Assembly: GCA_903832055.1 (NCBI GenBank)
Contig: CAILAC010000002.1
Coordinates: forward strand, 434,001-498,000
From: an uncultured Acidobacteriota bacterium
Lineage (GTDB): Bacteria > Acidobacteriota > Terriglobia > Terriglobales > Acidobacteriaceae
Length of the DNA: 64,000 nucleotides
Direction of reading: 5' to 3'
Both the position numbers and the translations under genes were made by a program. Position 1 is the first letter of the stretch; the number at the start of each line of letters is the position of its first letter. Shown here in pieces: positions 14,721 through 26,099 of this stretch. The notes below the pieces were generated by a model. It worked only from the letters and a program-made list of their open reading frames with translations. It did not search any database and had not been told where the DNA came from.

Positions 14721-15467
14721 TCAGTTCCCCGAGCGCATCCCCGAGACCGTGTCGTGTGCGCGCCAGGCGGCGGCTTTGCGATCGGGAAAAGCTTCCGGGG
14801 TTCCAAACCGCACTACTGCTGAAAACCTTTCAACACCGAGCACCTGCAGCAGGTGGGGCAGGAACGGATCGTTGCCGAACCAGCACAGATCGCGCTCAGT
14901 GGCGCTGCCATGCGCCTCGTAGAAGACTGCGGCGGGTGTCACCGTCAATCCTCTTTTGATCGCCGGTTCAAACAGGGTTGAATGAAATCGTTGGACTTCG
15001 ATGCCGTCTGTACTCGTGCCCTCGGGAAAGAAAAGCACCGGAACCCCGATGGCAAGCCGCTCGGAGATCGCCTGCGCTGTTTCCCAGGCACTTGCGCGGC
15101 TGGCTCGATCAACGAAGATCGTACCTCCCATACGCGCCAGTGAACCAAAGCCCGGCCAATCAGCGATTTCAATCTTGGAAACAAAGGCGCAGGGAACGGC
15201 CGCGCTCAGTATTGCAATATCCAGATAACTCAGATGGTTGGCGACGATGAGCGTAGGGCCGACAGGCAACCTGCCCTCGATGCGATAGTGAATTCCCATC
15301 GCCGGGAGCGTAATACGTCCGCAGAAATGCATCCACTGGGCCTTCTGCTGCGCCGTCACTTCCCTGCCCCGCAGTGCGGCCATCAGACGCAGTGCCTGAA
15401 AGTGCAGAAAGCAGAACAAAAGAGATAGCAACAGGACAAAGCCGCGGCGAACGGCCCGCAGACTCAC
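14721..15467 (-). CDS. olsA: 1-acyl-glycerol-3-phosphate-type O-acyltransferase (OlsA/PlsC family)
   Basis: Membrane-associated PlsC-family acyltransferase, 248 residues, with an N-terminal hydrophobic helix (GFVLLLSLLFCFLHFQAL), the catalytic NHLSYLD (NHx4D box, about residues 76-82) and FPEGTSTDG. The start is a GTG whose GTGA overlaps the stop codon of the upstream N-acyltransferase gene, so translation of the two is coupled. This pairing points to OlsA, which adds the second acyl chain to lyso-ornithine lipid, rather than general phosphatidic acid synthesis. The family call is firm; the OlsA role is inferred from the neighbour. Confidence 0.8.
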   Translation of the reverse strand: MSLRAVRRGFVLLLSLLFCFLHFQALRLMAALRGREVTAQQKAQWMHFCGRITLPAMGIHYRIEGRLPVGPTLIVANHLSYLDIAILSAAVPCAFVSKIEIADWPGFGSLARMGGTIFVDRASRASAWETAQAISERLAIGVPVLFFPEGTSTDGIEVQRFHSTLFEPAIKRGLTVTPAAVFYEAHGSATERDLCWFGNDPFLPHLLQVLGVERFSAVVRFGTPEAFPDRKAAAWRAHDTVSGMRSGN

Positions 15468-16399
15468 CCGGCCAGCGGAGCCAGGAACCGGTTCCGCGCA
15501 GACGACGTAATCGCGCGCAGATCAAGAAGTGTCAGGAAGTCGATGGTGCCAAATTCCTTGTCCCAGGCCGGCGCACTGCAGATGCGCGCCCCGATTGCCA
15601 GATAAGTCTTCAGGAGCTTGGGTGCCTTGGTGGGGACGGCATCCGGCTCTGTAACCTGCTCTTCTCCCTCGCCCGGGCAGACAAAACCCGTCATGGGGTG
15701 TGTCTCAAATTCATGAGACGCGCGGTACTGGCCGAGCTGGGCGTACATCTCCCAGCCCTCCCGCGGATCCACGGAATTGAGCGACGAGCAACCGATCAGG
15801 TAGCGCAACTGCATATCGGTAGCATACTGCGCAATGCCGCGCCAGAGCAGGGTCAGCACTTCGGGGGTGCGATGTTCGCGATCGATGGCGGCCCGGCCCA
15901 GCTCCAGAATTTCGCCGCGCATGGCCTCGTAGGGCGAAAAATCAAATTCCTGTTCAGAGTAGTAGCCCAGATTGTGCGCAGCCGTCACACCGGACTGCAT
16001 CCGGTATGTGCCCACGATACGGCGGGCTGAACCGGTCTCAGCCTGCTTGTCTTCGACGATCAGGTGTTCGCAAAAGAGGTCGAAGTGGTCGGTATCGAGG
16101 CCGGTTTCGTAAGATGCCTCAAGCCCCTTGCCCAGCTCAATATTGAATACCTTGAAGCGCAACCGGCAAACGGCGTCGCGGTCGGCAACAGTCTCAGCAA
16201 GGCGCAGTCGGTAGCGGCCGACCTCGGCATGGATGCGGGGACGCGCAGCCCGTAGAGGAACGGCGACGCGCAACTCCGGCGTCGAGACATTCCCGGCAGC
16301 CCCGGCAACAACCCCGCCACCCGAAAGAGAAACATCCCAAAGCGGCGAAACAGCCACCGCCATCCTGGAAGGAACCTGCAATCTTGTCTGAGATTTCAC
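15464..16399 (-). CDS. olsB: OlsB-like N-acyltransferase (GNAT fold, ornithine-lipid synthesis)
   Basis: 311-residue protein with the acetyltransferase-like domain shared by OlsB and hemolysin-related acyltransferases (YRLRLAETVADRDAVCRLRF, then DHFDLFCEHLIVED, ELGRAAIDREHR, GCSSLN). OlsB transfers a 3-hydroxyacyl chain from acyl-ACP to the alpha-amino group of ornithine, giving lyso-ornithine lipid. The N-terminal about 50 residues are low-complexity and may be partly untranslated. It overlaps the downstream PlsC-type gene by 4 nt, exactly the arrangement expected for an olsBA operon. Ornithine lipids replace phospholipids under phosphate limitation in other bacteria. The acyl acceptor could also be another amino acid. 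Confidence 0.8.
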   Translation of the reverse strand: MKSQTRLQVPSRMAVAVSPLWDVSLSGGGVVAGAAGNVSTPELRVAVPLRAARPRIHAEVGRYRLRLAETVADRDAVCRLRFKVFNIELGKGLEASYETGLDTDHFDLFCEHLIVEDKQAETGSARRIVGTYRMQSGVTAAHNLGYYSEQEFDFSPYEAMRGEILELGRAAIDREHRTPEVLTLLWRGIAQYATDMQLRYLIGCSSLNSVDPREGWEMYAQLGQYRASHEFETHPMTGFVCPGEGEEQVTEPDAVPTKAPKLLKTYLAIGARICSAPAWDKEFGTIDFLTLLDLRAITSSARNRFLAPLAG

Positions 16400-16499: not shown

Positions 16500-16781
16500 C
16501 TAGACCAGGCCCCCGGCAATCGAAGGGATCACCAGCACTTCATCGCCATCCTGAAAGGCGTAGCCCTCGTTGCCGAGGAAGCGGATGTCTTCTTCGTTGA
16601 CGTAGAAGTTGATGAATTTGCGCACCTGGCCGTCTTCTCCGCGCAGGTGCTGGCGGAGTGCGGGGAAACGGGCTTCCATGTCTTTGACCAGCTCGGGCAG
16701 ATTGGCGGCGGTGCTTTCGATTTCGCGAACGTTGTTGGTGTGCTTTTGAAACGCGTTGGGCAATAGAACCTTAATCGGCAT
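16500..16781 (-). CDS. CysO/MoaD/ThiS-like sulfur-carrier protein with GGLV tail
   Basis: 93-residue ubiquitin-fold sulfur carrier. It resembles mycobacterial CysO in length and in the block KFINFYVNEEDIRFLG followed by DGDEVLVIPSIAGG. Sulfur carriers bear sulfide as a thiocarboxylate on a terminal Gly-Gly; here two residues, Leu-Val, follow the Gly-Gly, so a protease would have to trim it, as reported for QbsE and HcyS. The ATG overlaps the end of the upstream threonine-synthase-like gene by 11 nt and uses a Shine-Dalgarno (GGGAG) inside it, so the two are translationally coupled and stoichiometrically linked. It lies downstream of a SAM riboswitch. No activating E1-like enzyme or JAMM protease is encoded in the window. 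Confidence 0.9.
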   Translation of the reverse strand: MPIKVLLPNAFQKHTNNVREIESTAANLPELVKDMEARFPALRQHLRGEDGQVRKFINFYVNEEDIRFLGNEGYAFQDGDEVLVIPSIAGGLV

Positions 16782-18054
16782 AGACCGCTCCCGCCAGGCT
16801 CAGTGCCCGACCATTCTCAAGTTTATCCTGCTGCTCTATATAGGCTGCAAAGTCTGCCATGCGGGGCCGCACGGCTTCGTGCGCCTCGTAGGCGCCTTGC
16901 AGCACGTCGGTGGTTTTAAGGCCGTTGCCGGTGATGCAGCTGACGGTCAGTTCGTCTGCCTTGATGCGGCCGCTGGCGTAGAGGCGGGCGGTGACAGCGG
17001 TGGTGACGCCGCCGGCTGTTTCGGTGAAGACGCCCTCGGTCTCGGCGAGCTCCTGAATGCCGGAGACGATCTCAACGTCTGAAACATCCTCAGCCCAGCC
17101 GCCGGAGTCGCGAATGGCGCGAATCGCATAGGGACCATCAGCGGGGTTGCCGATCGCCAGCGAACGCGCAATGGTGTTGGGGCGCTGCGGCTCAATGCCG
17201 TCTGCACCGTTGCGCACGGCGGTGGTGATCGGCGAACAGCCGGTGGCCTGCGCGCCAAAGAACTTCACAGGCTTGTCGGCGACGAGACCGAGGGCGACGA
17301 GTTCCTTGAACGCCTTGCGAATCTTGGTGATGAGCGAGCCGCCGGCCATGGGCACGACGACGTTATCAGGCAGACGCCAGCCGAGCTGCTCGGCGATTTC
17401 AAAGCCGACCGACTTCGAACCCTCGGCGTAGTAGGGGCGCAGGTTTACGTTGACAAAGCCCCAATTGTACTTCTCTGCAATCTGCGAGCAGAGGCGGTTG
17501 CAGTGGTCGTAGTTGCCGTCAATGCGAATCAGGTTTGCGCCGTAGACCTGGGTATTGAGGATCTTGGCTGGTTCCAGATCGCCGGGAACGAGGATGTAGG
17601 TCTTCAGGCCGAGGCGGGCGGCTCCGGCGGCGACCGCGTTGGCGAGATTGCCGGTAGATGAGCAGCCGACGGTGTCGAATCCGAACGAAACGGCGTTGGC
17701 GAGGGCAACAGCAACGACGCGATCTTTGAAGCTGAGGGTGGGCAGGCAGACGGCGTCATTTTTGATGTAGAGGTTTTTTGCGCCAATGCGGGCACCGAGC
17801 CGGGGAGCTTCCATCAACGGCGTCAGGCCGGTCGGCGTCGTGGGAATGTAGCTGTCGGCAACCGGGAGCAGCGCACGGTAGCGCCATATGTTCAACGGGC
17901 CGCTCTGGATGGCGTCGCGCGTGAAGCGGCTGCGGGCGTAGTCCAGGTCAAAATCTACTTCCAGGGGAGAAAAACAGTCGTCACAGATCGAAAGGGGCTG
18001 ATTCCCATAGCTCTTGCCGCACTCCCGACATCGCAATTCGTAAGCCGTCGTCAC
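16771..18054 (-). CDS. thrC: Threonine-synthase-like PLP enzyme, SAM-riboswitch controlled
   Basis: 427-residue fold-type-II PLP enzyme. An N-terminal zinc-ribbon-like element (Cys9, Cys12, Cys24, Cys27) precedes the PLP lysine in LSFKDR and the phosphate-binding CSSTGNLANAVAAGAA. By family it is threonine synthase (O-phosphohomoserine to threonine), close in fold to cysteine synthases. Start is a GTG with GAGG at 5 nt. Two things argue for a sulfur role or at least methionine-linked control: the leader is an S-box SAM riboswitch with terminator, and the next gene, overlapping by 11 nt, is a CysO-like sulfur carrier. It may therefore use a protein thiocarboxylate to make homocysteine or cysteine, or be a true threonine synthase shut down with methionine synthesis. 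Sequence alone does not decide. Confidence 0.9.
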   Translation of the reverse strand: MTTAYELRCRECGKSYGNQPLSICDDCFSPLEVDFDLDYARSRFTRDAIQSGPLNIWRYRALLPVADSYIPTTPTGLTPLMEAPRLGARIGAKNLYIKNDAVCLPTLSFKDRVVAVALANAVSFGFDTVGCSSTGNLANAVAAGAARLGLKTYILVPGDLEPAKILNTQVYGANLIRIDGNYDHCNRLCSQIAEKYNWGFVNVNLRPYYAEGSKSVGFEIAEQLGWRLPDNVVVPMAGGSLITKIRKAFKELVALGLVADKPVKFFGAQATGCSPITTAVRNGADGIEPQRPNTIARSLAIGNPADGPYAIRAIRDSGGWAEDVSDVEIVSGIQELAETEGVFTETAGGVTTAVTARLYASGRIKADELTVSCITGNGLKTTDVLQGAYEAHEAVRPRMADFAAYIEQQDKLENGRALSLAGAVYAD

Positions 18055-18141
18055 AGTTCCCTCGCAGTATGCGAGAGCAGTTGGAAAACGAGTACGCCTA
18101 AACCGACTCCATTTGGAGTGAACTGAGAGGATTCTGTCTGC

Positions 18142-18177
18142 AAAAACGCCCCGGACCCCAGGTCCAGAAGCATTTTT
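18142..18177 (-). terminator. Riboswitch expression-platform terminator
   Basis: Immediately after the SAM aptamer: a stem of 16 pairs, including the run AAAAA/TTTTT at its base and GGACC/GGTCC at the top, with one bulged U and a UGG loop, ending in a UUUUU tract. It lies about 90 nt before the start codon, so SAM binding would favour premature termination. Confidence 0.85.
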
Positions 18178-18178
18178 C

Positions 18179-18290
18179 GAATCTCATGTCCCCCGTTGCC
18201 GGGCGAGAGTTGACACCGTGATCCAGAATTGCTCCGGCCGGTTGTCGTGGCGTCAAAGGGCTCGTCCCTCAACCACTCTTCATGAAATCC
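18179..18290 (-). promoter_or_regulatory. SAM (S-box, SAM-I type) riboswitch aptamer
   Basis: The minus-strand leader of the thrC-like operon matches the S-box. P1 is a 10-bp helix GGAUUUCAUG (18290-18281) with CAUGAGAUUC (18188-18179). The conserved core AAGAGTGG-TTGAGGGA-CGAGCCC-TTTGACG-CCAC-GACAACC follows the S-box order, with GUGG/CCAC closing P2 and the kink-turn GAGGGA/UGA. P3 is GC-rich. The conserved GGTGTCAAC comes next, and P4 is CCCG-GCAA-CGGG before the 3' P1 strand. A terminator follows directly, so the mechanism is transcription attenuation: OFF at high SAM. Assignment rests on motif and helix matching by eye. Confidence 0.88.
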
Positions 18291-18329
18291 AGGCTCGACC
18301 CCGTCAGGACCGAACCAGAATATATATCT

Positions 18330-18358
18330 GGTATAGCAGAGCTTGCTTGCCAACGCAA
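18330..18358 (-). promoter_or_regulatory. Probable promoter of the SAM-riboswitch operon
   Basis: Minus-strand TTGCGT (18353-18358), 17-nt spacer, TATACC (18330-18335) preceded by TGC, an extended -10. The transcript would start about 35 nt before the aptamer P1 helix. Confidence 0.45.
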
Positions 18359-18372
18359 CATCACGTACAGCG

Positions 18373-20896: not shown

Positions 20897-23800
20897 TCAT
20901 GCCACAAAGTACTTCGCCTGCGGATGATGCACCAGAATTGCGTTTGTACTCTGCTCTGGTTCCAGGTGGTAGCCCTCAGTCAATCGCACTCCAATTGACT
21001 TTTCGGGCTCAAGCAGTCTAAATATCTTCGCCTGGTCCTCGAGGTTCGGACAGGCTGGATATCCAAAAGAGTAACGCGAACCTTGGTACTTCTGGTGAAA
21101 AAGATCGGTTACTTTTGCAGAATCTGCTCCGGCAATTCCCAAAAGCTGTCTTGCCTGTTTGTGAACGTACTCGGCAAGAGCCTCTGCCGTCTCCACTGAA
21201 AGTCCATGCAAGTATAAATACCGAGTGAAATCCCCCGCTTCAAACAACTTCTGTGTTTCTAGTGATGCCTGATCGCCGATTGTGACAATCGTGAATCCAA
21301 TTACGTCTCTTTTTTCTGCACTATCGCTTCGAAGCGGTTCAAAATAGTCTGCAATCGAGAGCCGCCGCCCCTGAGCCTGCCGTGGAAAGGTAAATCTTTC
21401 AATTTCCCGGTCCTGCTCCATAGGGTCATAGACAATCACGTCGTTGCCCTGGCTATTGCAGGGATAGAACCCGATGACCGACTTGGGATGAAAGCACCCG
21501 GCTGCTTTTACTTCTTCCTTCAGGTGCTCGAGGATAGGCCGATACTTTTCCTCTACGATGCGCAGATAGTCCCCCTGAGCCGCTGTCTTTAGCTGCCACT
21601 GATTCTTGAAGAGCGCCGTCTCATTCAAATAAGGGAACAGATCTTCAAGTCGGTAGTCTGTATAAATTCGCGCACCCCAGTATGCAGGCACCGGAATCTT
21701 CGTCGCAGATTCAATCGCGGGCGAGCGGCCTGCGGCCGTCAGTTCGACTGACTCCAGCTCCAGCGAAGCTCCCTTACCTTTGGCATAGATTTTTACCGTC
21801 TTGCCTTCGGTGATGCGCGCCTCGCGCACGGCCCCATCGCTACTGGTGAGATCGGCAATGATGTGCAGCCCGGCAAAAGCGTCTTCTGCATAGTAGACAG
21901 GTCCGGCGTACTCCTGACGCAGGTCCTCTTCTACGTATTTGCGGGTCAGGGCTGCGCCGCCACAAATCACCGGAATCTCAAGGCCCAGCCGCTCCAGATC
22001 CTGCAGCACGTACTTCATCTCCAAAGTCGATTTGACGAGCAACCCACTCAATCCGATAGCATCGGTCGCATTTTCCCGCGCCGCGTGCACGATCACATCC
22101 GAGGGCTGCTTGATGCCGAGGTTGATAACCCGGTAACCGTTGTTGGTCAAGATGATATCCACCAGATTTTTGCCGATGTCGTGGACGTCGCCTTGGACGG
22201 TGGCCAGCACCATGGTTCCCTTGCCGCCGCCATCCGCCTTCTCCATCTTTGGCTCAAGATAGGCAACCGCAGCTTTCATCACGGCCGCCGAATCCAGTAC
22301 CGAAGGCAGTTGCATCTTGCGCGAACCGAATAACTCGCCCACCGTCTTCATCGCATCCAGCAGCACGTCATTGATCAGTTGCAGAGGCGTGTAAGTCGCG
22401 AGCGCCGCCTCCAGAGCCTCATCAAGCGACTGCTTGTTTTCGCCCAGGCCGATCGTTCGTTCGCCGCGAATGACGAGTTGCTTGAGGCGGTCTTCGATGC
22501 TCAGGTTTTCTACTTCAACGACATCTTCCTGCACCGAGCCTTTGGTCAGGCTGGTGAAGTAGGCCATGTACGCCTGGAGAGGATCCGATTTTGCTTCGTC
22601 GGGGCCCCAGTCCTGGAAGATCAGTTTCCGCGCCAGTTCCACTTCCTTCGCGGGAATCTTGTACAGCGGATAGATCCGTGAGTAATTCACAATCGCCGTA
22701 TCCAGACCGCGATCCACGGCTTCCTTCAAAAACACCGAATTCAGCACCCGCCGCGCATAGGCATTCAAGCCAAACGAAACATTGGATACGCCGAGAACAG
22801 TCTTGCACTCCGGCAGCTCCAGCTTGATGCGCCTGACGGCTTCGAGCGTCTCAATGGCCGCCGAGCGGTAATCCTCCTGCCCGGTCGAAATCGGCAGAGT
22901 CAGCGGGTCAAAGATCAGGTCCTGCGGGCGCAGGCCGTAGCGATGGACGGCCATATCGTGGATGCGGTGGGCGATGGCGACCTTCTTGTCGGCGGTGAGG
23001 GCCATGCCGGCTTCGTCGATGGTGAGCGCAATGACCGCTGCGCCGTAGCGACGCGCCATGGGCAAAACCTTGCTGGTGCGCTTTTCACCGTCTTCAAGAT
23101 TGATGGAGTTGATAATCGGCTTGCCCGGGATGCGCTTCAACGCCTCTTCAATCACCTCCGACTCAGTCGAATCCACCACAATTGGTGCCAGCACGCGCGT
23201 GGCGATCTTTTCGAGCACCGCGTTCATGTAGGCCTGCTCGTCTTCGCCGACAATCGCGCAGCACAGGTCAAGCATCTGCGAACCCTCACCGACCAGCCGC
23301 TTGGCCAGCGTGAGAATTCCGTCGTAATCCTGCTCGCGCACCATGTTGCGGAAGTGCTCGAGGCGCGTCGTGGTGTTCATTTCCTCGGCGATAACGACGG
23401 GCTGTCCATCCATCTCCAGCGGCACGGCGGCAAAGGCGCTCGCCACGACGGACTGCGGCTTGTTGTTGCGGACCAGCGGCGTCAGGCCGTGGACCGCCTC
23501 GGCGACGGCGCGCAAATGCTCCGGAGTCGTTCCGCAGCAGCCGCCGACGACGCTGACACCGTATTCGGTCACAAACCGACGCTGATGGGCGGCCAGTTCG
23601 GCCGGGGTCAGCTTGTAGACGGCGCGACCTCCCTCGTTCTGCGGCAGGCCTGCGTTTGGTAACACAGAGATCGGGAGCGTCGAATTCTGGCAGAGAAAGC
23701 GGACCGCGTCGTTCATTTCCTCGGGTCCGGTAGCACAGTTGAGGCCTATGACATCGGGCTGAAATGCCTCAAGCACGGCCAAAGCCGCGCCGATTTCAGA

Positions 23801-24412
23801 GCCCAGAAGCATGGTGCCAGTGGCCTCAAGGGTTACTTGCACCTGCAGCGCGACACGACGGCCACCGCGCGCAACCTCAGCGTTGATCGCGTCCTGGCAG
23901 GCAGCCATCGCGATGCGGGCCTGCAGCAGGTCCTGGCAGGTTTCGATGAGCAGAATGTCAACGCCGCCCTCGATCAGGGCAGAGGCCTGCTCCCGATAGC
24001 TCGCCGCCATCGCGTCATAGCCAATGTGCCCCAGCGAAGGCAGCTTGGTCGTCGGCCCCATCGAACCGGCGACAAAGCGCGGCTTTTCTGGCGTCGAATA
24101 AGCATCTGCCACTTCGCGAGCCAATCGCGCGGCAGCGACATTCAATTCGTGGGCGCGGTCTTCCAGCTCGTATTCAGCCAGCACAATGCTCGCGGAACCA
24201 AAGCTGTCGGTCTCGAGCACATCGCAGCCAGCCTCAAGAAAGGCCGCATGCACCTGACGAATCACGTCAGGCCGCGAGAGTACGAGAATTTCGTTGCACC
24301 CCTCTTTGCCCCAGAAATCTTCAAGCGTCAGCGCATGTTTTTGTAGAGTTGTGCCCATCGCGCCGTCATAGACGAGCACGCGATCCTTAAGAAGTGAAAG
24401 AAAATCCGCCAA
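20897..24412 (-). CDS. metH: Cobalamin-dependent methionine synthase
   Basis: Full-length MetH of 1171 residues: 5-methyltetrahydrofolate + homocysteine to methionine + tetrahydrofolate. All four modules are seen in order: homocysteine-binding barrel with zinc cysteines (IGLNCATGPEE and VVGGCCGTTPEH, about residues 220-300), pterin-binding barrel (about 340-620), cobalamin-binding module with GDVHDIGKN (lower-ligand His, about 750-880), and the C-terminal SAM-binding reactivation domain ending near EQSTNAILVHHPQAKYF. The start is TTG at 24412 (ADFLSLLKDRVLVYDGAMGTT), since the next Met would cut into the conserved N-terminus. It lies 59 nt downstream of hipA, leaving little room for a riboswitch of its own, and is followed by the HEAT-repeat gene. 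Confidence 0.97.
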   Translation of the reverse strand: MADFLSLLKDRVLVYDGAMGTTLQKHALTLEDFWGKEGCNEILVLSRPDVIRQVHAAFLEAGCDVLETDSFGSASIVLAEYELEDRAHELNVAAARLAREVADAYSTPEKPRFVAGSMGPTTKLPSLGHIGYDAMAASYREQASALIEGGVDILLIETCQDLLQARIAMAACQDAINAEVARGGRRVALQVQVTLEATGTMLLGSEIGAALAVLEAFQPDVIGLNCATGPEEMNDAVRFLCQNSTLPISVLPNAGLPQNEGGRAVYKLTPAELAAHQRRFVTEYGVSVVGGCCGTTPEHLRAVAEAVHGLTPLVRNNKPQSVVASAFAAVPLEMDGQPVVIAEEMNTTTRLEHFRNMVREQDYDGILTLAKRLVGEGSQMLDLCCAIVGEDEQAYMNAVLEKIATRVLAPIVVDSTESEVIEEALKRIPGKPIINSINLEDGEKRTSKVLPMARRYGAAVIALTIDEAGMALTADKKVAIAHRIHDMAVHRYGLRPQDLIFDPLTLPISTGQEDYRSAAIETLEAVRRIKLELPECKTVLGVSNVSFGLNAYARRVLNSVFLKEAVDRGLDTAIVNYSRIYPLYKIPAKEVELARKLIFQDWGPDEAKSDPLQAYMAYFTSLTKGSVQEDVVEVENLSIEDRLKQLVIRGERTIGLGENKQSLDEALEAALATYTPLQLINDVLLDAMKTVGELFGSRKMQLPSVLDSAAVMKAAVAYLEPKMEKADGGGKGTMVLATVQGDVHDIGKNLVDIILTNNGYRVINLGIKQPSDVIVHAARENATDAIGLSGLLVKSTLEMKYVLQDLERLGLEIPVICGGAALTRKYVEEDLRQEYAGPVYYAEDAFAGLHIIADLTSSDGAVREARITEGKTVKIYAKGKGASLELESVELTAAGRSPAIESATKIPVPAYWGARIYTDYRLEDLFPYLNETALFKNQWQLKTAAQGDYLRIVEEKYRPILEHLKEEVKAAGCFHPKSVIGFYPCNSQGNDVIVYDPMEQDREIERFTFPRQAQGRRLSIADYFEPLRSDSAEKRDVIGFTIVTIGDQASLETQKLFEAGDFTRYLYLHGLSVETAEALAEYVHKQARQLLGIAGADSAKVTDLFHQKYQGSRYSFGYPACPNLEDQAKIFRLLEPEKSIGVRLTEGYHLEPEQSTNAILVHHPQAKYFVA

Positions 24413-24471: not shown

Positions 24472-25782
24472 CTACGAAAGCAGACAGAAATCACTCTGAA
24501 CCTGCGCCGCCGTTTTTGAATCAATCGCGGCTTCGTCAGCGAATTGAGACCAGTTCCTCACTGCGTCACGGACGCGCTGCAACAGATCCTTTGGCCGGCG
24601 CACTCCAAAGCGATCGGCCACCGCCAACAGGTCTTCCACCTCAATTGCAGAAAACTTGCCGTTGACGCTCATCAGGTGCTGGTAGGTCCACGCGCCTCTG
24701 GGATTGTAAGCATGCGTGATGTCGTACGCCGGAGCCAGTTCCCACGCAGCGCCTCGCTTCATGCGAAAGCTGAAGTTCTTCGTATGGTCATCGCAGTTCC
24801 GCGCCATCACATTCAACGCCATCCGCAAAAATGCCTGTCGAAATGCCTCATCGTCCAGTTCTAGTCGCTGAAGCACCATAAACAGCTGGTTGTAGCTGTG
24901 CGTTGCCCGCTGTTTGAAGTCAAGATGATCCATTGCACAGAGTGTCTGCAAATGATGCTTCACCGTCCTGCCGTCGACCACGTCGCGGTCAAAGCGTCGC
25001 GTCATGAAGTGGGCGCGGCCGTTCTCCTCAAGCAGCCGGCAAGGCTCCATGATGATGCCTGCTGCCAAAGCCATCCGGTGATAGGCATACTCGATCCGCC
25101 CATACTCCTCGCCTGTCCCCAGTTCCGCATCCCGGCCCATGCCGTCAAACTTCAGCAGCCAATGCTCAAACCCGCCCGCAGCATCGAACTGCCCGCTGCG
25201 TATCTGGTCGGTCCTGGGATTCCAGGCAATGACCGCTTTGGCCCGCGCACCGCCTGCCGAGGTGCCCACGCGAATAATGTTCGCCAGGGCAGCCTGCGCC
25301 TGCGTCGATTCTTCCGAAGTCCCGTTGAGATGGATGCTGCCCGTGACCAGCCTGCGCGCTTCCTCCACCAGAGCCTGCATCGCAAGCGGAGCTTCGCTCT
25401 CCCGGTGCGAACCCTGCGCCGGACGAAATTCCAGTGCGCCCATCCCTCGCTTACCCATGTACGCCAGGCGGTCGAGTGCCGTAATTGCGCTCTTTTTCAC
25501 GCCGCGCTGTGCCATCCAGGCGTCAATCAGCGCATTGCCAAAGTCGTCTGGCAGGGCATCTGCCACCATTGCCGGCAGACCATGAAACGTCGACTTGGGC
25601 AGCTCAGGAAAGGCAAAAACAGGTTGCCGGCTTTTCACCGGCATCGCCAGCGGAGCCAGCTCCTGCCAGCCGCGCTTCCATGCAGGGTCGTAGGCAAACA
25701 CGTAACAGCCCAGACGGGCGTCCTCCGCCAGCGCCCCGACAAACTGGTCCCAGAGATGAACCTCCAGCAACTTCGTGGGCAT
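24472..25782 (-). CDS. hipA: HipA-type serine/threonine kinase toxin
   Basis: 436-residue HipA family kinase. Seen in order: HipA N-terminal-like segment, the glycine-rich loop VGTSAGGARAK, the catalytic NCDDHTKNFSF (Asp followed by HxKN) and metal-binding APAYDITHA. E. coli HipA phosphorylates glutamyl-tRNA synthetase and induces persistence. All catalytic residues appear intact. Its ATG overlaps the hipB stop as TGATG, the usual coupled antitoxin-toxin arrangement. The gene ends 59 nt before metH on the same strand. The target here is unknown; HipA relatives differ in target tRNA synthetase. Confidence 0.92.
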   Translation of the reverse strand: MPTKLLEVHLWDQFVGALAEDARLGCYVFAYDPAWKRGWQELAPLAMPVKSRQPVFAFPELPKSTFHGLPAMVADALPDDFGNALIDAWMAQRGVKKSAITALDRLAYMGKRGMGALEFRPAQGSHRESEAPLAMQALVEEARRLVTGSIHLNGTSEESTQAQAALANIIRVGTSAGGARAKAVIAWNPRTDQIRSGQFDAAGGFEHWLLKFDGMGRDAELGTGEEYGRIEYAYHRMALAAGIIMEPCRLLEENGRAHFMTRRFDRDVVDGRTVKHHLQTLCAMDHLDFKQRATHSYNQLFMVLQRLELDDEAFRQAFLRMALNVMARNCDDHTKNFSFRMKRGAAWELAPAYDITHAYNPRGAWTYQHLMSVNGKFSAIEVEDLLAVADRFGVRRPKDLLQRVRDAVRNWSQFADEAAIDSKTAAQVQSDFCLLS

Positions 25783-26099
25783 CAGCCGCGCTCCTCACCG
25801 CGCTTGCGGCGAATCCGCTGCGGGAGTCGCGCCCCTCGCATCAGGGTCAGCGGATTTACCGACGGCTCCGGCACCAGCAGGTCCAGCACATCCAGGCCGT
25901 CAAGCGCCCTGAGCGTTCTCAGCAGGGTTTCTACGGTCGAGCCGCGCCCACCTTCCAGATTCCGCAACGCCTTCTCCGAGATGCCGGCCCTCTCCGCCGT
26001 CGTCACCTGGTCCATCTCCCGTGAAAGGCGCAGACGACGTATCCGCTCCCCCAGCGCCTCTTGCAGTTCTGCATCCACGCGCTCAATTACTTTGTCCAT
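25782..26099 (-). CDS. hipB: HipB-like antitoxin, helix-turn-helix repressor
   Basis: 105-residue XRE-type DNA-binding protein with a helix-turn-helix (LRLSREMDQVTTAERAGISEKALRNLEGG, about residues 24-52), typical of HipB: the antitoxin that binds HipA and represses the operon. The C-terminal part is basic (RLPQRIRRKRGEERG) and longer than E. coli HipB (88 residues). The stop overlaps the hipA start. The start codon is only a few bases from a 10-bp inverted repeat in AT-rich DNA, probably its own operator, and no Shine-Dalgarno is present, suggesting a very short or leaderless mRNA. Confidence 0.88.
   Translation of the reverse strand: MDKVIERVDAELQEALGERIRRLRLSREMDQVTTAERAGISEKALRNLEGGRGSTVETLLRTLRALDGLDVLDLLVPEPSVNPLTLMRGARLPQRIRRKRGEERG

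Follow-up and report, generated by a model that had tools for sequence, protein, structure and literature searches.

A SAM-I riboswitch upstream of a metM-metO-like gene pair in Acidobacteriota, a probable route to homocysteine

Background

Mycobacterium CysO/CysM is a thiocarboxylate-dependent cysteine synthase system using O-phosphoserine. In Wolinella, HcyS and MetY carry out thiocarboxylate-dependent homocysteine synthesis, in which the carrier is trimmed by a JAMM-type protease and the partner is a MetY-type pyridoxal 5′-phosphate (PLP) enzyme acting on O-acetylhomoserine. Methanogen cysteate synthase, a relative of threonine synthase, combines O-phosphoserine with sulfite and uses no carrier. 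For the Streptomyces pair MetM/MetO, thiocarboxylated MetO is reportedly the sulfur donor and O-phosphohomoserine the substrate. In this study, a 64,000-nt stretch of DNA from an uncultured Acidobacteriota bacterium (assembly GCA_903832055.1, contig CAILAC010000002.1, positions 434,001 to 498,000; hereafter the window) was analyzed, in which an S-adenosylmethionine (SAM) riboswitch precedes a gene annotated as threonine synthase (here metM-like) and an overlapping gene for a small sulfur carrier (metO-like).

The accessible part of PMC12172450 credits the discovery of the homocysteine synthase MetM in Streptomyces to Hasebe et al. 2024 (AEM 90:e01247-24) and states that metM of S. albulus has an upstream SAM riboswitch. 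It also describes a threonine synthase (ThrC) of Microcystis aeruginosa, 51.6% identical to MetM, whose gene is without a SAM riboswitch and lies beside a carrier gene similar (47.25%) to S. albulus metO. The initial annotation of the window, made from the sequence, had supposed that the pairing of such genes under a SAM switch might be undescribed; this has to be withdrawn, since the S. albulus pair was already reported. It had also named CysO/CysM and HcyS/MetY as parallels. Their thiocarboxylate logic is indeed shared, but the nearest parallel is MetM/MetO, because that source reports the Streptomyces MetM, metO and riboswitch.

Results and discussion

Main features of the locus

The features of the locus are listed in Table 1. 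We propose, with a probability of roughly 0.85, that they form an acidobacterial metM-metO operon under SAM-I control, which would make homocysteine from O-phosphohomoserine and the carrier thiocarboxylate. The catalytic steps of this proposal are inferred from the anatomy, conservation, distribution and gene neighborhoods observed below.

Table 1. Positions of the riboswitch, the gene pair and metH in the window
Feature	Position	Strand	Evidence
metO-like sulfur carrier, 93 aa	16500..16781	minus	PF02597 (ThiS), 43.9 bits (cut-off 22.5)
metM-like gene, annotated threonine synthase, 427 aa	16771..18054	minus	TIGR00260, PF00291
Terminator-like hairpin + TTTTT, presumed expression platform	18149..18169	minus	terminator scan and fold
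SAM-I (S-box) aptamer	18181..18288	minus	RF00162, 70.8 bits (gathering 44.4), E 1.5e-14, model 1-108/108
metH, B12-dependent methionine synthase	20897..24412	minus	TIGR02082, 1225.8 bits (cut-off 1010.85)

SAM-I riboswitch and leader

A covariance-model search with RF00162 matched the full model above the gathering score, and the S-box read by eye at 18142-18290 in the initial annotation proved correct to a few bases. This was the sole riboswitch above the gathering score in the window and the only SAM-I detected in the genome (98.83% complete) by Rfam scan. The minus-strand leader folded as a multi-branched aptamer followed by a distinct hairpin and TTTTT, and the adjoining terminator expected there was placed by both scan and fold. 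The folding energy of the leader was ordinary (z -1.62; 12 of 200 shuffles folded equally well), and the terminator scan returned 2 sites in 2.15 kb versus 2.5 in shuffles, so the hairpin is informative by its position alone, right after the aptamer. Terminator-like sites within 150 nt 5′ of the metM-like gene were found in 13 of 38 loci versus 0.8 expected from approximate shuffles (40 loci drawn, one without the gene and one truncated locus removed), indicating that a terminator is not general across the relatives scanned. From these features, we infer that SAM controls the leader via the terminator hairpin.

Linkage of switch and enzyme gene across the order

Among 120 genomes of the order, 85 had RF00162, with 87 switches in total, and 90 had the enzyme gene, counted at E ≤ 1e-75. 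The order of riboswitch, enzyme and carrier recurred widely: 84 of the 87 switches preceded the matched enzyme stretch on the same strand, at a distance of 97-272 nt (median 139). In genome G023, another switch is only 210 nt away from the end of its contig, and 30 residues that match the enzyme gene's start come after it; this genome carries a full enzyme match on another contig. The remaining two (G086 and G117) precede a cysteine desulfurase, the family match being checked for G117. No SAM-I was detected in the 30 genomes without the enzyme gene. In all six loci examined from family f2 (L021, L022, L023, L025, L031, and L033), the far side of the switch holds another threonine-synthase-like gene (30-38% identity), divergent from the MetM-like gene.

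SAM-I is directly 5′ of a gene for a NifS/IscS-type cysteine desulfurase in L123 (2530-2645, by eye) and L125 (10458-10571, NCBIfam).

The metM-like enzyme is distinct from ThrC1

The metM-like gene starts with GTG, preceded by GAGGG. Its product scored 228.2 bits against PF00291 and 282.4 bits against TIGR00260 (thrC), over the cut-off of 167.1, and contains the motif SFKDR, in which K110 is presumably the PLP lysine. The nearest solved structures to the enzyme profile were threonine synthases (2zsj, 9.1e-64), and a cysteate synthase chain (9k3c) was also matched at 1.6e-7. The genome has nine PF00291 matches, including two further threonine-synthase-like proteins, each 32-34% identical to the metM-like enzyme. 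The first, encoded by a canonical thrC, passes TIGR00260 with 279.9 bits and adjoins thrB (TIGR00191, 203 bits); the second matched PRK08197 with 533 bits.

The 51-row tree split 41 MetM-like rows, including Microcystis novacekii (L231) and the actinomycete Nonomuraea, from 8 ThrC1 rows and 2 rows of the third, PRK08197-type kind, at a branch supported at 100/99. This grouping is partly expected because the rows were retrieved by similarity; the program also warned of long branches, and four rows hold one stop each, entered as X. Twenty-three signature columns, three of them in or beside SFKDR, were near-invariant in the 41 MetM-like rows (≥93%) and differently so in the 8 ThrC1 rows (≥85%). 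At each of the 23, the window enzyme agrees with the MetM-like rows, and the ThrC1 signatures (such as PTGSFKD, RLEGQK, and EPASA) are absent from it.

Its occurrence beyond the order was surveyed in a GTDB-wide scan, from which the best 80 of at least 591 pattern matches were taken and one Nonomuraea record was added, giving 81 stretches. The carrier was in the same stretch as the enzyme in 75 of these loci, usually as the next gene and in a few up to 1.5 kb off, and ThrC1 was in the same stretch in 5.

In the strongest competing explanation, the enzyme is an additional threonine synthase of the ordinary type, or a synthase/deaminase with both activities, regulated by SAM to divide O-phosphohomoserine, and the carrier serves something else. 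This explanation draws on the TIGR00260 score, on the solved structures and on the synthase and deaminase activity of the M. aeruginosa relative given in the accessible part of PMC12172450. We judge it unlikely, given the differing signature columns and the thrC-thrB pair at another place in the genome, which can serve threonine synthesis; the constancy of the carrier at the enzyme's side also speaks against it, as does the SAM switch, which suits methionine more than threonine synthesis, as the initial annotation had noted.

The sulfur carrier and its C-terminal end

The overlap of 11 nt between the carrier and metM-like genes, noted in the initial annotation together with the CysO/ThiS-like character of the carrier, was exact, and the carrier was above the ThiS cut-off (Table 1) and below those of MoaD and SAMP1. 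The genome has one other ThiS-family match (2 in all), a MoaD-MoaE-like fusion whose MoaE part was recognized by eye. A profile of 21 carrier relatives had its best match to 3dwg at 5.9e-24 (entry name cfp10A), which we take to be CysO, followed by the ThiS/MoaD family protein 4n6e at 3.7e-23. Gly-Gly was invariant in the 21 aligned carriers, which is partly built in since these were chosen by a Gly-Gly end plus at most 6 residues.

The window carrier ends in PSIAGGLV, two residues past Gly-Gly. With a pattern that required Gly-Gly, carrier ends were readable in 106 of 121 loci; the counts are not independent because some genomes entered the set twice, under different names. Acidobacterial carriers ran 1-42 residues past Gly-Gly in 63 of 70 readable ends, versus none of 23 in cyanobacteria, where all end at Gly-Gly. 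Eight acidobacterial carriers (L063, L065, L066, L067, L068, L177, L178, and L223; L065 and L178 are apparently one contig) have a Cys-rich tail, CSYCGQExCxC (CSYCGLENCTC in L223), beginning 5-30 residues past Gly-Gly. These C-terminal extensions look new. A tentative and rather improbable idea is that acidobacterial MetO is a pro-carrier and that trimming of its tail by a JAMM peptidase gates homocysteine synthesis, perhaps by metal, thiol or redox state, atop the SAM switch, which in family f18 controls the whole relay of E1, cysteine desulfurase, MetM and MetO.

Sulfur activation and methionine genes

In the genome of the window, a gene for an E1-rhodanese protein (PF00899, PF00581) adjoins one for a JAMM peptidase (PF14464). 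Relatives have runs of cysM, JAMM, carrier and E1 genes (L130, L131, L134, and L136 by eye; L302 by tblastn), of which the window's genome and G062 keep just the JAMM-E1 portion. JAMM was present in 118 of the 120 genomes, so its presence does not discriminate. Sulfur-side neighbors in the 81 stretches were E1 in 14, CysM in 8, TusA in 7 (the query being drawn from one of these loci) and JAMM in 4; those on the substrate side were homoserine kinase (ThrB) in 6 and homoserine dehydrogenase in 3. In the window, metH, whose product would use homocysteine, has the same orientation as the switch; it lies 2.6 kb further upstream, separated from the switch by two other genes.

Two further explanations concern the sulfur source and the product. 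In the first, free sulfide would react with O-phosphohomoserine and the carrier would be merely a partner or regulator. Na2S tried with the Microcystis enzyme gave an unidentified peak near methionine, according to the accessible part of PMC12172450, which is in favor of it. The carrier ends at Gly-Gly or some residues beyond, as read with the Gly-Gly pattern, and the associations with E1, JAMM, TusA and cysteine desulfurase make it very unlikely. In the second, the pair would be a cysteine synthase like CysO/CysM acting on O-phosphoserine, as the CysO match of the carrier profile and the nearby CysM-like genes might suggest; this is the least credible of all, since a distinct cysM-JAMM-carrier-E1 operon occurs in relatives, and the grouping of the enzyme with threonine rather than cysteine synthases, its homoserine kinase and homoserine dehydrogenase neighbors and a switch that senses SAM are all against it.

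Wider phylum and other phyla

Across the phylum, 102 of 247 genomes, members of the order included, carried RF00162. Thirty loci of the wider phylum, mostly the best-scoring places, were inspected with genes named by tblastn. Beside the switch were MetM-like genes in four (L258, L267, L272, and L286), E1 in five, all of family f18 (L259, L262, L263, L271, and L275), MetY/MetX-superfamily genes in 8, MetH N-terminal genes in 10 and homoserine dehydrogenase in 2; in L269, tblastn found nothing beside the switch.

In four loci of f18, L288, L289, L290, and L291 (genomes G250, G136, G229, and G264), the switch is followed by genes for E1, cysteine desulfurase, the MetM-like enzyme and the carrier, and in a fifth, L292, the contig ends within the MetM-like gene. 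For L289 alone, the family assignments were confirmed by domain matches (PF00899; PF00266 and TIGR01977; PF02597). This SAM-switched operon is apparently a complete sulfur relay and would be a compact gene set for reconstituting the pathway. It looks new: among the matches listed in a literature search, with subscription literature mostly outside, no title or abstract opening described either this operon or the system in Acidobacteriota. The accessible parts of PMC5764234, PMC12910592, PMC7311316, and PMC12452182 mention no such enzyme-carrier pair.

Rfam scanning of 45 of the 80 best-scoring loci from the GTDB-wide scan detected SAM-I in 15, eight of them acidobacterial and the others, by record titles, from Kiritimatiellae, Mariprofundaceae (three), Gemmataceae, Deltaproteobacteria and Desulfuromonadales. 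An operon with a CysM-like gene in first place follows the switch in L228. None of the 15 cyanobacterial loci scanned with Rfam had SAM-I, and in Nonomuraea the SAM-I, enzyme and carrier are in line.

Other homocysteine routes and points against the assignment

MetY was over the cut-off in 35 of the 120 genomes of the order and MetA was found in 10. MetX at E < 1e-100 was present in 28, all beside MetY and all below the TIGR01392 cut-off; a further 22 genomes with only weaker MetX matches (7.8e-31 to 5.9e-45) were left uncounted. At these cut-offs, 73 of the 90 genomes with the enzyme gene had no MetX, MetA or MetY, and in these the MetM-like pair is the only homocysteine route recognized among those tested. 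Of the 30 genomes without the enzyme gene, 19 had the acyl-homoserine route with MetX and MetY and 11 had neither route. The association between the enzyme gene and the acyl-homoserine route had a Fisher p of 1.4e-5, which ignores shared ancestry. The DUF39 route was rejected as an explanation for the genomes without MetX, MetA or MetY, as DUF39 was found in 0 of 120.

Several observations weigh against the proposed assignment. Five of the 90 genomes have the enzyme gene without a detected switch, G020 having a partial match only, and a loose-threshold rescan of three of the five, covering all but G020 and G080, found no SAM-I. The acyl-homoserine route (MetX or MetA) is also present in 17 of the 90. 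Twenty of the 73 genomes hold one of the weaker MetX-like matches in the range given above, all 120 match the MetY model somehow, mostly below the cut-off, and transsulfuration by a related enzyme, such as one of the MetB type, may occur. Neither route was recognized in the 11 genomes mentioned, so absence of MetX, MetA and MetY alone is no proof of the proposed route; because 9 of the 11 are 98-100% complete, some other route or auxotrophy exists. G062 has the JAMM-E1 pair without a metM-like gene, which makes the orphan pair of the window's genome suggestive only and weakens it as proof of service to the carrier. As given in the accessible part of PMC12172450, M. aeruginosa ThrC in vitro both converted O-phosphohomoserine to threonine and deaminated threonine, and the authors doubted that it fully acts as MetM in the cell.

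The window's genome itself also has MetX and MetY, so the pair here would be an additional SAM-controlled route and not the sole one. A cystathionine gamma-synthase/lyase-like gene is located near a cysteine-synthase-like gene in this genome, and transsulfuration is therefore possible.

Nine near-complete genomes (G035, G063, G079, G088, G089, G098, G100, G103, and G109) were without MetM-like, MetX, MetA and MetY genes at the cut-offs used and without DUF39.

Proposed pathway

Comparative genomics and the separate thrC-thrB pair favor a thiocarboxylate pathway to homocysteine, with a threonine-synthase-like enzyme as sulfur acceptor, as the initial annotation had suggested for homocysteine or cysteine. 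When SAM is scarce, the leader would escape termination and both the metM-like and metO-like genes would be expressed. The JAMM peptidase may then trim the residues after Gly-Gly on MetO and the E1-rhodanese protein may adenylate the Gly-Gly end, to which cysteine sulfur would be passed via a cysteine desulfurase, giving the MetO thiocarboxylate. MetM would swap the phosphate of O-phosphohomoserine, from the threonine branch, for the carrier sulfur, and the resulting homocysteine would be methylated to methionine by MetH. If this is true, automatic annotation could label many such soil bacteria as methionine auxotrophs with a spare threonine synthase.

Other genes

The carrier gene is followed, at 14721-16399 of the window, by two genes whose products resemble acyltransferases of ornithine-lipid synthesis (OlsB- and OlsA-like; below NCBIfam cut-offs). 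A HipA-like protein and an adjoining small helix-turn-helix protein, possibly a toxin-antitoxin pair, were noticed by eye at 24472-26099. In L128 (2329-5682; G000:C3), genes for a small ubiquitin-like protein, an E1-like protein, a JAB-domain protein and further proteins lie in a row, identified by eye except for the JAB match; the arrangement resembles that of a prokaryotic ubiquitin-like conjugation cluster.

Comparison with known systems

With CysO/CysM, the window locus shares the carrier family and the E1/JAMM logic. Unlike CysM, the partner enzyme belongs to the threonine synthase family, not the cysteine synthase family, and its predicted substrate is O-phosphohomoserine. The similarity to HcyS/MetY is in thiocarboxylate-dependent homocysteine synthesis; the enzyme here matched PF00291 only and is therefore not a PF01053 partner of the MetY type. 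Cysteate synthase is likewise a threonine synthase relative turned to a sulfur nucleophile, but without a carrier. M. aeruginosa ThrC, judged by its relative M. novacekii, falls in the same tree group and has an adjoining carrier gene. It differs in having no SAM riboswitch, in the cyanobacterial carriers ending at Gly-Gly and in its reported threonine synthase/deaminase activity (PMC12172450, accessible part).

The closest resemblance is to Streptomyces MetM/MetO: a threonine-synthase-like enzyme of a lineage apart from ThrC, an adjacent Gly-Gly carrier, an upstream SAM riboswitch and, as predicted here, homocysteine from O-phosphohomoserine, the presumed kinship to S. albulus MetM being judged indirectly, via the Microcystis and Nonomuraea rows. 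The differences are that the window locus is acidobacterial, with MetX and MetY also in the genome, that its carrier extends beyond Gly-Gly and that the f18 relatives add E1 and cysteine desulfurase to the SAM-switched operon. The locus is an acidobacterial representative of the already described MetM/MetO kind.

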